NCBI GenBank assembly: GCA_003330885.1
Contig: CP030277.1
Span: forward strand, 3,026,001 to 3,090,000
Length of the DNA: 64,000 bases
Source: Rhodobiaceae bacterium
Lineage (GTDB): Bacteria; Pseudomonadota; Alphaproteobacteria; Parvibaculales; Parvibaculaceae
Direction of reading: 5' to 3'
The notes beneath the pieces were generated by a model. It was not told the origin of the DNA. It saw only the letters and a program-made list of their open reading frames with translations, and searched no databases. The position numbers were made by a program, and so were the translations under genes. Shown here piece after piece: positions 12,982 through 16,967 of the stretch (position 1 is the stretch's first letter; the number at the start of each line of letters is the position of its first letter).

Positions 12982-13971
12982 ATGGAAATTCTACTATCAG
13001 CAGATGGTGCTGAGGCGCTGGGAACACGGTTTTCGTCGATTGAGGGCATAACGCCGGTGCTTTTCCAGCGCGATGGCTCTCTGACCCGCAACGGCGTGCC
13101 TGTCGAGCGGGACGACGTCAGTCCAAAATGTGCTTGGCTGAGCCTCGATGTTCTCATCACCAAACGCGTCTTCGACTATGTTGATCATCTCTTGAACCTG
13201 CCCTCCCTTGAATGGATTCAGTCAACAGCAGCCGGTTTCGACAATCCGCTTTTTGTCGAAATGGCGAAGAAGGGAATTCGTCTTACCAACTCAGATGCGC
13301 AGTCGGTGGCCATCGCGGAATTCGTTCTGGGCTCTGTCCTGTTTGAGTTTCAAAACCCCACCGCCCGCCTTCAAAATCAGTCTGAGAAAAAATGGAAAGG
13401 CGTCGATTTTCGCGAAATAGCCGGTACCACCTGGATGATTGTCGGCATTGGCAATATCGGCAATGAGACGGCAAAGCGCGCCCGCGCCTTTGATGCCCAT
13501 ATCATCGGCGTCAAGCGCACCGGCGAGAGTGCGCAGGCCCACGAAACCATCCGCCCCGCTGAGATGAAAGCGCGGCTGCCCGAATGTGATGTCGTGGTTT
13601 TCACAAGCCCGCTGAACAACGAAACACACCATATGGGGAATGCCGATTTCTTTGCGTCCATGCAAGAAGGAGCAACCTTCGTCAACATCGGGCGCGGCGG
13701 GCTGGTGAATGAGACTGAATTGCTCACAGCGCTCGACAAAGGAACACCGGGAGTGGCGATCCTTGATGTCTTCGAAACCGAACCCCTGCCAGAGACAAGC
13801 CCCCTTTGGGAACACGCCAATGTTCGCGTGACACCGCACTCTTCGCCAAAGTCAAATGGCACACCGGTAAGAGCACAGGAGCTCTTCCTGGAAAACCTTC
13901 AAGCCTTCCTGAAAGAAGAACCGCTGCGCAATGAAGTGCCGGCTGCAACGATTATTGGATCGGCGGCTTAA
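12982..13971 (+). CDS. D-2-hydroxyacid dehydrogenase family protein
   Basis: NAD(P)-dependent dehydrogenase of 329 residues. The Rossmann motif is GIGNIGNETAKRA followed by a basic VKRTGES, suggesting NADP(H). Later motifs are NIGRGGLVNE with the catalytic Arg region, DVFETEPLPETSPLW with the Glu, and TPHSS with the proton-relay His. Likely acts on glyoxylate/hydroxypyruvate or a related 2-keto acid, but the substrate is not readable. The ATG at 12982 was chosen over the GTG at 12976 because of the GGGGTGGG just upstream. Its end overlaps the convergent LysR gene by 20 bases. Confidence 0.88.
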   Translation: MEILLSADGAEALGTRFSSIEGITPVLFQRDGSLTRNGVPVERDDVSPKCAWLSLDVLITKRVFDYVDHLLNLPSLEWIQSTAAGFDNPLFVEMAKKGIRLTNSDAQSVAIAEFVLGSVLFEFQNPTARLQNQSEKKWKGVDFREIAGTTWMIVGIGNIGNETAKRARAFDAHIIGVKRTGESAQAHETIRPAEMKARLPECDVVVFTSPLNNETHHMGNADFFASMQEGATFVNIGRGGLVNETELLTALDKGTPGVAILDVFETEPLPETSPLWEHANVRVTPHSSPKSNGTPVRAQELFLENLQAFLKEEPLRNEVPAATIIGSAA

Positions 13972-14839
13972 GCGTCCCCTCAAGCCTCGTTTTGAGGTAA
14001 CCCCGACGCTCAATGACAAATTGACGAAAGGCACTCACCCGTGCGGTAGCACGCAGGTCTCTGTGGGACAGCAACCAAACATCCATACGCGGCGACGGGT
14101 CTGTCAGACGAACAAACTCAGGAACCGCGTCACCTGCGAAGCAAGGTATGAGGCCAATGCCGAAACCCGCCTTCACTGCTTCAACCTGCATGGGAACATG
14201 ATCGAAACGCCCGACCGTGGGTAAATTCGGAAACGCACTGGACGCCACCCAACGCGTCCGATGAGCAGCTTCCCCAAACCCGACCCAGCGAGCCGTTTGG
14301 CTCGTCTCCAATGGCCCATGTTCTTCCAGATAGGCTTCGGTGCCATAGGCTGCTTCGTGAAAGGTGCCCAGTTGCCGGCCGATAAGGTGTTCCGGCGGAT
14401 TGTTGGTGAACCGAATGGCAACATCAGCTTCCCGTTTGGAAAGATCAAAGATGCTCCAGCTTTCATTCACTTCCAGATCAATCGATGGATAGGCTTCCAT
14501 AAACTCAAACAGGATCGGTCCCATCAGGTACATGGCAAACATGTCCGGCAGCGTGACCATAAGAGGCCCCGCCAACTCCTTGTCGGCGCCGCGCACCTGG
14601 CGTTCAACACCGAGAAGATTGTTCTCCATCGATTGCGCCACGGGCAGCAGGGCAACACCTGCTGGCGTCAATTCAAACCCGTCGCTCCGACGCTCAAACA
14701 AGCGGGTATCGAAATCAGATTCCAGAGATTCAATCCGGCGTGAGATTGTCGTGTGGCTCACCCGCAGGACCTTTGCCGCAGCGCGCATAGAGCCGGCGTC
14801 CGCAGCCGCCAGGAATAGTCGTAAATCGTCCCAGTTCAT
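13952..14839 (-). CDS. LysR-family transcriptional regulator
   Basis: DNA-binding regulator of 295 residues with an N-terminal winged helix (DLRLFLAAADAGSMRAAAKVLRVSHTTISRRIESLE) and a C-terminal effector domain. Its target is not obvious: it is convergent with the 2-hydroxyacid dehydrogenase and divergent from the ECF41 sigma operon, 302 bases away. A TGCAA-N5-TTGCA inverted repeat 82 bases upstream of its start could be an autoregulatory site. Confidence 0.92.
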   Translation of the reverse strand: MNWDDLRLFLAAADAGSMRAAAKVLRVSHTTISRRIESLESDFDTRLFERRSDGFELTPAGVALLPVAQSMENNLLGVERQVRGADKELAGPLMVTLPDMFAMYLMGPILFEFMEAYPSIDLEVNESWSIFDLSKREADVAIRFTNNPPEHLIGRQLGTFHEAAYGTEAYLEEHGPLETSQTARWVGFGEAAHRTRWVASSAFPNLPTVGRFDHVPMQVEAVKAGFGIGLIPCFAGDAVPEFVRLTDPSPRMDVWLLSHRDLRATARVSAFRQFVIERRGYLKTRLEGTLKPPIQ

Positions 14840-15141
14840 ATGGTCGGCTTCTCTTCATTGGCTGGACACGAGGTCCCCGCTCGAACACTCGCTTCTGGAC
14901 ATAGGCACCACGGCAGACCATGCAAGAGGCTTGCAAATAAAAAGACACTCGCGCAGCAGTGAACCATTGCCGGTGCCCGCAATTGTCTGAATTGGCTCAA
15001 AACAAAGGGTCAATATGGACCTGTGCGTAGGGTGAGTACGCATCCAAGCTCAAAAATGTTTGAGATGCTCTGTCACAGGAGCCCTCCCCGCCTCGTCATA
15101 AGAGCAAGGCGGCTGAACCCGCTGCAATAAGGAGCTTTAAA
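14840..15141. other. Intergenic region with ECF41 promoter and small inverted repeat
   Basis: A 302-base gap between divergent genes. TGCAA-gaggc-TTGCA (14921-14935) is a short palindrome that may serve the LysR gene. An ECF41-type promoter match lies at 15071-15097. A GGAG follows at about 15131 as ribosome binding site of the next gene. Nothing else was recognised. Confidence 0.6.
15071..15097 (+). promoter_or_regulatory. Candidate ECF41-dependent promoter
   Basis: TGTCACA at 15071-15077, a 16-base spacer, then CGTC at 15094-15097. This is the promoter pattern reported for ECF41 sigma factors, here 45 bases upstream of the first gene of an operon whose third gene encodes such a sigma factor. 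It implies autoregulation. The match is seen directly; the function is inferred. Confidence 0.8.
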
Positions 15142-15522
15142 ATGGCCAAAATTGTGCTTGGCATCATCGCCGCAATCTATGGAGTGAATGCTCTCCTCAT
15201 GTGGTTCGCACCCATGTACTGGTACGAGACCACGCCGGGCGTGGCTATGATGGGTCCTTTCAACCTCCATTTTGTCCGCGACATCGCTCTGATTTATCTC
15301 ATCGCAGCTGGTGCCTTCGCTTGGTCCGTCAAAAACAATACGCCTCAGGTTGCCATCACAGGCGCGATATGGCCCTGCCTCCACGGCCTCTTTCACATTC
15401 AGATATGGATGGCCCGCGGTGTACCCCTCGACGAAATCGCATTCGTCAATCTCGTTGGCATTCAGATCCCCGCTTGGGCCGGTCTCTATTTCGCCACGCA
15501 GCTTTCATCCACAAAGGAGTAA
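15142..15522 (+). CDS. Small four-helix membrane protein in ECF41 operon
   Basis: Protein of 126 residues with four predicted membrane segments (about residues 3-20, 46-66, 72-92 and 104-121). The segments WYETTPGV and GPFNLHFVRDIALIYL, and the later LHGLFH, look conserved-family-like, with several histidines and tryptophans. I do not recognise a function; it resembles small DoxX/DUF4345-like membrane proteins. It opens a three-gene operon with the AhpD-like protein three bases downstream and the ECF41 sigma factor, directly below the candidate sigma promoter, so it is probably a main target of that sigma factor. Confidence 0.75.
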   Translation: MAKIVLGIIAAIYGVNALLMWFAPMYWYETTPGVAMMGPFNLHFVRDIALIYLIAAGAFAWSVKNNTPQVAITGAIWPCLHGLFHIQIWMARGVPLDEIAFVNLVGIQIPAWAGLYFATQLSSTKE

Positions 15523-15525
15523 CCC

Positions 15526-16071
15526 ATGATCCGCTGGCTTCTGCATCTCGGCACAAGGTCTATGGAACGCAAGACCAACTATGACGCGAGCTATATGCAT
15601 GACGTAATTGATACGTCGACATCAGCCGGACTGAAACTGGGCCTGCTCCCCCTTCTCTCACAACACCGCGAAGATGCGCCCAAACCTCTTTGGTTTGGCG
15701 CAGGTCTCGCCTCCGTTCTGGAAGGCGATTGCGGGCCGTGCGTCCAACTGATGGTGGACCAGGGCGTGTCCGAAGGCGTCGACCCGGACCTGCTGCGCGC
15801 AATACTTGCACGCGACTTCGATGCAATGGGCGAAGAAGCCGCGTTGGGATTTCGCTTTGCAGAATCAGTGATCGCCGGTGACATGGACAGCGAAAACTAT
15901 CGGATCGAGATTGAACACCGCTACGGCAAACGCGCCACGATTGCGCTGGCATACGCCACAGCCTTTTGTCGCACCTACCCAGTTCTAAAACGCGGTCTGG
16001 GGCATGGATTGGCCTGCCAGAAAATCAAAGTCGGCGATCAACTGGAGACCGTGATAAAAAAGGCTGCATGA
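15526..16071 (+). CDS. AhpD-like / carboxymuconolactone decarboxylase-fold protein
   Basis: Protein of 181 residues, helical, with EGDCGPCVQLMVDQGVSEG in the middle. The CxxC on a helix followed by the acidic and helical downstream part resembles the thiol site of AhpD-like peroxidase partners of the carboxymuconolactone decarboxylase superfamily. The usual CxxCxxxH histidine is replaced here (CGPCVQLMV), so peroxidase activity is uncertain. Proteins of this superfamily are the classic partners encoded beside ECF41 sigma factors. Its stop overlaps the sigma gene start as ATGA, indicating translational coupling. Confidence 0.72.
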   Translation: MIRWLLHLGTRSMERKTNYDASYMHDVIDTSTSAGLKLGLLPLLSQHREDAPKPLWFGAGLASVLEGDCGPCVQLMVDQGVSEGVDPDLLRAILARDFDAMGEEAALGFRFAESVIAGDMDSENYRIEIEHRYGKRATIALAYATAFCRTYPVLKRGLGHGLACQKIKVGDQLETVIKKAA

Positions 16072-16967
16072 ACGACACAGCGACTGCCACGTTTGAACAG
16101 GAACGCGGTCGACTGACTTCCCTGGCATACCGAATGCTGGGGGAGCGGGCGGCCGCCGAAGACGTTGTGCAAAATGCCTGGCTGCGCTGGGCAGGCACCG
16201 ACGAAAGAGAAATCAAAATTCCTGCGGCCTGGCTCACCACGGTCACGACCCGCCTTGCAATCGATGCGCTCAAGAGTGCCCGCCACAAGCGCGAAGTCTA
16301 TGCGGGCATCTGGTTGCCCGAACCCATCTTGTCAGACACAGAAAACCCGGCGACTCCGGAAGATGCACTTGCACAAGCACAAGACGTGCAGCTTGCGCTT
16401 CTATGGGCCATGGAGCGTTTGGCGCCAGAAGAAAGGGCAGCCTTCATTCTGAGGGAAGCCTTTGATAGCGACTATGCTGATATTGCCGCGACACTCGATA
16501 AAACCGAAGCCGCCTGCAGGCAGTTGGTCGCTCGGGCGAAAAAGCGGGTGAGCGAAGAAAGCCCCCGTTTTGACGCCTCGATAGCAGAAGTTGGCGACCT
16601 TCTTTCCCGTTTCATGGAAGCTGCTCAAACACACAACAAGCAGGAAATTCTCTCGCTCTTATCGCCCGACGCCCTGGCCCTTTCAGACGGTGGAGGCAAA
16701 GTACGCGCGGCCTACCGTCCTCTTGTCGGTCCTGACGACATTGCGCTGGTCTTTACAAGCTTGCTCCAGAAAAACGCGGACAATGTCAAACCACGGCTGG
16801 TGTATGCAAACGGCCGCCCTGCCATCGTGTCACTTCAGAAGGATGAGAAAACAGACATTGTCATCAGCCTTGTGCCCGACCACGAAGGGTTGGTGCGCTG
16901 GATCTATGTGATGCGCAATCCGGACAAGCTCACTCGACCCACGGAGGATATTAGGCCGAGCGCCTAA
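16068..16967 (+). CDS. ECF41-type RNA polymerase sigma factor with fused SnoaL-like domain
   Basis: Sigma factor of 299 residues. Region 2 (LTSLAYRMLGERAAAEDVVQNAWLRW) and region 4 (ERAAFILREAFDSDYADIAATLDKTEAACRQLVARAKKRV) are followed by a roughly 120-residue SnoaL/NTF2-like domain. The extension carries DGGGKVRAAYRP and, close to the end, RNPDKL; DGGGK and NPDKL are the diagnostic motifs of group ECF41, where the extension replaces an anti-sigma factor and tunes activity. No anti-sigma gene is present. The ATG at 16068 overlaps the stop of the AhpD-like gene. The 3' end overlaps the convergent membrane-protein gene by 17 bases. Confidence 0.93.
   Translation: MNDTATATFEQERGRLTSLAYRMLGERAAAEDVVQNAWLRWAGTDEREIKIPAAWLTTVTTRLAIDALKSARHKREVYAGIWLPEPILSDTENPATPEDALAQAQDVQLALLWAMERLAPEERAAFILREAFDSDYADIAATLDKTEAACRQLVARAKKRVSEESPRFDASIAEVGDLLSRFMEAAQTHNKQEILSLLSPDALALSDGGGKVRAAYRPLVGPDDIALVFTSLLQKNADNVKPRLVYANGRPAIVSLQKDEKTDIVISLVPDHEGLVRWIYVMRNPDKLTRPTEDIRPSA

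Follow-up and report, generated by a model that had tools for sequence, protein, structure and literature searches.

ECF41 is a widespread group of σ factors, and its founding paper (Wecke 2012, PMC3426412) gives the motifs WLPEP, DGGGK and NPDKL as its hallmarks. For two ECF41 systems, the same account shows that the σ factor is controlled by its C-terminal domain and that the CMD protein is dispensable for signaling (PMC3426412). The σ factor, its promoter and its link to a CMD gene are already known (Wecke 2012). In the parts of the literature considered here, a single target is reported for Bacillus licheniformis and Rhodobacter sphaeroides (PMC3426412) and for Sinorhizobium meliloti (PMC6180224).

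Here we analyzed a 64-kb stretch of DNA, referred to as the window, that harbors an ECF41 locus headed by the gene of a small membrane protein (MEM). From sequence comparison, we consider it probable that the locus as a whole is an autoregulated ECF41 operon with a target in trans, in which MEM and the AhpD-like protein CMD1 would be outputs.

An ECF41 operon headed by a membrane protein gene

The features of the locus, with positions counted from the first letter of the window, are as follows.

13952-14839, minus strand: LysR gene, the upstream neighbor, oriented away from the operon
15071-15097, plus strand: promoter TGTCACAGGAGCCCTCCCCGCCTCGTC, an exact match to TGTCACA-N16-CGTC (-35 box at 15071-15077, -10 box at 15094-15097)
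15103-15107, plus strand: putative transcription start, 6 to 10 nt past CGTC, predicted from the ECF41 promoter spacing given in PMC3426412
15129-15134, plus strand: ribosome site AAGGAG of MEM
15142-15522, plus strand: MEM, ORF of a membrane protein (126 aa, four long helices, no named family)
15268-15270, 15280-15282, 15382-15384 and 15394-15396, plus strand: invariant MEM residues H43, D47, H81 and H85, respectively
15526-16071, plus strand: CMD1, a diverged AhpD-fold protein (by model) of 181 aa, with CGPC at 15730-15741 and a conserved third cysteine, C164
16068-16967, plus strand: ECF41/SigJ-type σ factor of 299 aa, with WLPEP at 16311-16325, DGGGK at 16686-16700 and NPDKL at 16917-16931
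16551-16964 (approximate limits), plus strand: SnoaL-like C-terminal domain fused to the σ factor, placed by a SnoaL_2 match below cut-off, the full-length SigJ model match and motifs as in PMC3426412
16951-17676, minus strand: unrelated membrane protein of 241 aa, convergent with the σ factor gene, the last 17 nt of which it overlaps

The three genes of the operon, in the order MEM, CMD1 and σ factor, are tightly packed on the plus strand: the MEM ATG lies 44 nt past the end of the promoter motif, CMD1 starts 3 nt past the MEM stop, and the σ factor ATG at 16068 overlaps the CMD1 stop. An earlier reading of this DNA, made from the sequence only, had placed TGTCACA-N16-CGTC directly ahead of an operon composed of a four-helix membrane protein, an AhpD-like CGPC protein and an ECF41 σ factor, and the exact motif, the ORFs, the MEM model and the CMD1 fold all agree with it. 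Its further claim that an anti-σ factor gene is absent also holds in that no recognizable one is adjacent, since neither MEM and CMD1 nor the flanking genes matched an anti-σ family in Pfam or NCBIfam; a family search of this kind leaves room for MEM as an anti-σ factor without likeness to the known ones. The convergent 241-aa membrane protein has a weak DUF202 match below cut-off.

The σ factor matches Pfam Sigma70_r2 (46.9 bits) and r4_2 (46.7 bits) and, over nearly its whole length, the NCBIfam model NF007214 of SigJ (310.6 bits, cut-off 271), with TIGR02957 (SigX4) at 305, below its cut-off of 323. Compared with SigJ from Mycobacterium tuberculosis (PDB 5xe7) it scores 163 bits over residues 6-240, and SnoaL_2 matches residues 180-255 with 16.5 bits, below the Pfam cut-off. 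ECF41 members carry WLPEP as a linker motif, along with DGGGK and NPDKL in a C-terminal extension that spans some 100 aa at least; all three motifs are present in the σ factor and its extension measures ∼135 aa, as anticipated by the sequence-only reading for DGGGK and NPDKL in the fused SnoaL-like domain. The linked COE gene (CMD, oxidoreductase or epimerase) that marks ECF41 loci is represented by CMD1 through its modeled AhpD fold, without a Pfam sequence match, and TGTCACA-N16±1-CGTC stands ahead of the COE/σ unit. Together, these sequence features support the σ factor of the window as a member of ECF41. It is the sole one found in the genome, where the next best matches reach 22-33 bits.

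The window's CMD1 gave no Pfam match and, by sequence, falls short of PF02627; a relative (L019) scored 21.5 against a cut-off of 23. Its model (pLDDT 90.3) nonetheless predicts an AhpD fold, and in the structure comparison the first 18 rows (Z 7.9-13.5) are members of the AhpD/CMD family or unnamed putative antioxidant proteins, after which Z falls to 4.7 and 3.1. The nearest structure is the debrominase Bmp8 (6ohi). CxxC is present in 84/84 CMD1 sequences, as CGPC in 75/84, and the third cysteine, C164, is conserved in 83/83; the His that comes after CxxC in CMD2 (see below) is missing. By its model, CMD1 is a diverged AhpD-fold protein, in line with the AhpD-like CGPC partner that had been proposed.

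Conservation of the promoter

Taken by itself, the promoter motif is weak evidence and not significant in one window: with spacers of 14 to 18 nt it occurs once in the 64 kb versus 0.14 expected matches, and 14 of 100 shuffles contain one. A genome-wide scan, which the sequence-only reading had proposed as a check, did yield a conserved second site at CMD2, but its counts with the N16 spacer were hardly above those of the reversed pattern (7 versus 4 matches). The functional reading of the motif is based instead on position and conservation.

The core GTCACA-N15..17-CGTC was found upstream of the operon or gene in all 30 ECF41 loci examined from this genome and its relatives, with no match of reversed and reverse-complement controls at the same loci. 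A scan of public genomes for MEM returned 80 loci, of which 48 have the order MEM-CMD1-σ, six have the σ factor gene divergent, three have MEM and CMD1 only, and in about 22 MEM is without a neighboring σ factor gene. Within 150 nt of MEM, the core is present in 45/47 MEM-CMD1-σ operons, in 6/6 divergent loci and in 1/3 of those with MEM and CMD1 only, versus 0/22 where MEM has no neighboring σ factor gene; the reversed pattern gave no match at these loci, and shuffles predict about 0.05 overall. These counts support the interpretation of the motif as an ECF41-type promoter.

In the six divergent loci, the σ factor side features a core-type site as well (6/6; five with CGTC and one with TGTC). 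Since both sides carry the motif, MEM-CMD1 would be a target in its own right. At five Maritalea loci (L090, L095, L098, L104 and L111), two ECF41-type promoters whose -35 boxes abut lie back to back in the region that separates MEM-CMD1 from the divergent σ factor gene.

Genomes G016, G020 and G027 have lost MEM as well as CMD1 (entirely or for the most part), and the promoter still precedes the σ factor gene, which fits positive autoregulation. Decaying operons were observed at L201, L202, L203 and L206 (in G016, G020, G027 and G019), with MEM and CMD1 lost or cut and the promoter kept; in G019, MEM and the σ factor gene are both truncated.

MEM is a conserved partner of ECF41

The AlphaFold2 model of MEM (pLDDT 91.6) predicts four long helices. 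Invariant residues are M20, P24, W27, H43, F44, D47, H81 and H85. Judged from charges, both ends of the protein are predicted to lie inside and the first loop, which adjoins H43 and D47, outside (0.03 K+R per sequence in the loop), and the antiparallel pairing of helices 2 and 3 makes it plausible that H43, D47, H81 and H85 form one site.

No Pfam or NCBIfam model matched MEM at cut-off, and a sequence search of the PDB also gave none. DUF4345 (PF14248) matched 5/30 MEM members weakly (best 1.3e-5). The best MEM relative scored 25.2 against the PF14248 cut-off of 26.5, the MEM of the window had no match, and profile comparison by hhalign gave a probability of 35%. With matches this weak and below the Pfam cut-off, we rejected membership of MEM in DUF4345, which is at best a distant relative. 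A structure search with the MEM model returned tetraspanin CD53 (Z 11.3), NACHO (Z 10.4, 3.2 Å over 114 residues) and others at Z 8-9. Helical bundles reach such scores without kinship, and the matches to VKOR, EBP and tetraspanins were not trusted, being generic helical bundles only.

When 144 genomes were sampled evenly across the class, ECF41 turned up in 32 and MEM in 14. All 14 MEM genomes also have ECF41 (hypergeometric 5e-11, or 5e-9 minus the own genus), and the two are linked in 12 of them. Roughly one in three of the ECF41 loci in this sample carries MEM. These comparisons indicate that MEM is a conserved ECF41 partner. The remark of the sequence-only reading that the membrane protein is less familiar as a third operon member is thus apt as regards the missing family name, but MEM is not a one-off.

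In a further set of loci (L122, L123, L126, L128, L130 and L132), MEM without ECF41 lies behind, mostly directly, the gene of a separate SnoaL_2 protein that is secreted (51.7 bits). These loci also have a divergent GntR-like gene and, downstream, more small membrane genes, one of them DUF4345. In G005, a second copy of MEM (L074, 4001-4372) precedes the operon by 3 kb; further second copies (L258, L256) lie behind a CMD1-like gene in G006 and, in G180, overlap a frame with a CMD2-like match.

A candidate target in trans

A search of the genus with the exact promoter found one more cluster in which the boxes are conserved and the spacer varies between species. This site belongs to CMD2.

G000:C1:1995932-1996372, minus strand: CMD2, a true PF02627 CMD gene (59.8 bits)
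G000:C1:1996412-1996438, minus strand: ECF41-type site, 40 nt upstream of CMD2

Present in 20/41 genomes, CMD2 has the core within 250 nt upstream in 19 of these 20, the twentieth featuring GTCACG, and controls gave 0. In 17 genomes CMD2 is unlinked to any ECF41 gene, and 16 of them keep the core; in the own genus, 6/7 species have no CMD2-side σ factor gene yet retain the promoter. The simplest reading, suggested by these comparisons, is that the σ factor of the window would serve both its operon and CMD2. Given that a conserved CMD2 promoter exists unlinked to ECF41, the operon should not be called self-contained, and the earlier description of it in these terms is probably wrong.

We nevertheless weighed the alternative that the operon is self-contained and that CMD2 is either served by another σ factor or preceded by a relic, a promoter that persisted after the neighboring ECF41 gene was lost in 6/7 species of the genus. 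One target per σ factor is what the published ECF41 cases feature, as far as their accounts go, and CMD2 is indeed followed by an ECF41 gene in G005, G009 and G037 (and only there), where these σ factors group in a clade of their own, separate from those linked to MEM. Against this, the CMD2 boxes have persisted while spacers changed, across three genera and a further family without a CMD2-side σ factor gene, and the operon has exactly the same -35 and -10 boxes, so that we judge this alternative unlikely.

In four species (G000-G003), a metallo-β-lactamase-fold gene (43.4 bits) follows within ∼25 nt or less of CMD2 (L177, L209; G000:C1:1993500-1997500), and this arrangement makes it likely that CMD2 and the hydrolase share a transcript driven by the ECF41-type promoter. 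Another ECF41-type site (L207; G000:C1:3004145-3004171, minus strand) precedes a gene for Cu/Zn superoxide dismutase (PF00080, 112 bits) by 35 nt, and this gene is followed by a ferric-reductase-like membrane gene. This site is perfect in G000 and G002, has one mismatch in G001 and G003, and is missing upstream of the superoxide dismutase homologues of 15 other genomes; limited to G000-G003, it is a weak lead only and was not retained as a third target. Most other motif matches in the genome were set aside as well, because they either have no equivalent in other members of the genus or have spacers that are nearly identical, as is typical of conserved coding DNA.

Proposed mechanism

In the autoregulated operon with a target in trans that we favor, the fused SnoaL-like domain would hold the σ factor at low activity until a change in a ligand at this domain lets it direct RNA polymerase to TGTCACA-N16-CGTC. 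The active σ factor would then raise expression of its own operon and, in trans, of at least one unlinked gene, presumably CMD2. MEM and CMD1 are most likely outputs: MEM, with its H/D/H/H set near the predicted periplasmic side, may act together with the CxxC thiol-redox proteins on an oxidized or reactive small molecule. The ECF41 identity, the promoter, the operon structure, the MEM-ECF41 association and the conserved second promoter are each supported by the comparisons above.

The sequence-only reading had left MEM as either sensor or output. If MEM were a sensor of a periplasmic or membrane signal, it would relay this to the C-terminal domain of the σ factor as a membrane anti-σ factor without known likeness. 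Its first place in the operon, the location of its conserved residues beside the loop predicted to be periplasmic, the presence of ECF41 in every MEM genome of the class sample and the order MEM-σ without CMD1 in G008 and G012 would all suit such a role. However, MEM is missing from most of the sampled ECF41 loci, some 22 MEM genes are without a σ factor neighbor, and variants with CMD deleted retain promoter and σ factor; moreover, MEM-less ECF41 systems were active in the laboratory tests described in PMC3426412, MEM-CMD1 has its own motif in divergent loci, and in G146 an unlinked MEM, on another contig, has its own ECF41-type promoter (the unlinked MEM of G144 has no ECF41-type motif). MEM also pairs with AhpD-like genes where the σ factor gene is absent. 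Because of the divergent loci, G146, this pairing and the laboratory activity of MEM-less systems, we infer that MEM is considerably more probably an output than a sensor, the latter being a rather doubtful role.

With MEM as an output, it is tempting to speculate, although we give this little weight, that MEM founds an unnamed family in which HxxxD/HxxxH forms a metal, quinone or reactive-lipid site, that it forms a functional unit with CxxC AhpD-fold proteins, and that it acts on the very molecule which the SnoaL-like domain of the σ factor senses. The MEM genes without σ factor that lie directly behind a secreted SnoaL_2 protein are compatible with such a shared molecule. If true, ECF41 would be a sensor of the substrate of its own enzymes, with a regulon in trans.

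Finally, it is highly improbable that the motif matches by chance and that a different promoter drives the operon, for although the pattern is only weakly above chance in window and genome, it is kept in place across many genera, absent at MEM genes without σ factor and matched by none of the controls, and a scan of little power found no σ70-like promoter upstream of the operon.

Comparison with known systems

In the part of the ECF41 literature compared here, neither MEM nor a CMD target in trans is named. The founding paper draws unnamed hypothetical genes between σ and COE genes (Wecke 2012, PMC3426412), and MEM may already be among them without having been remarked on. A CMD2 regulon in trans, as suggested by the sequence comparisons, goes beyond the one-target conclusion of PMC3426412 and PMC6180224, which suggests that this conclusion may not hold in every ECF41 host. 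For a σ factor group this widespread, a conserved third gene and an unlinked target narrow the search for signal and purpose, and the associations of MEM and CMD2 point to a process that involves thiol-redox chemistry and the membrane.

Like MEM, DUF4345 (PF14248) and DoxX-like proteins such as NACHO/TMEM35A are small four-helix membrane proteins, but the columns conserved in the DUF4345 alignment do not include the invariant H/D/H/H of MEM. CMD1 has its fold and CxxC in common with the AhpD/CMD family (PF02627) and Bmp8 (6ohi), and differs from PF02627 CMD proteins in having no Pfam match, a CGPC without the subsequent His and the extra cysteine C164. SigJ from M. tuberculosis (PDB 5xe7) belongs to the same σ factor family with a SnoaL-like domain.

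Among complete loci, SMb20029-rpoE9 from S. meliloti (RpoE9, PMC6180224) resembles the present one in its CMD gene upstream of ECF41 and its mapped start behind TGTCACA-N16-CGTC; unlike here, a sole target is reported and MEM goes unmentioned in the sections concerned. RSP_0606-ecf41Rsp from R. sphaeroides and ydfG/ecf41Bli from B. licheniformis (PMC3426412) share the same σ factor with C-terminal domain and WLPEP/DGGGK/NPDKL, the CxxC CMD partner, a TGTCACA -35 with a CGTC or TGTT -10 ahead of the CMD gene, and the lack of an anti-σ factor gene. Whereas the account of these two systems describes a single target and no MEM, the operon in the window begins with MEM, its CMD protein is diverged, and the promoter recurs ahead of a second CMD gene, unlinked to the operon.
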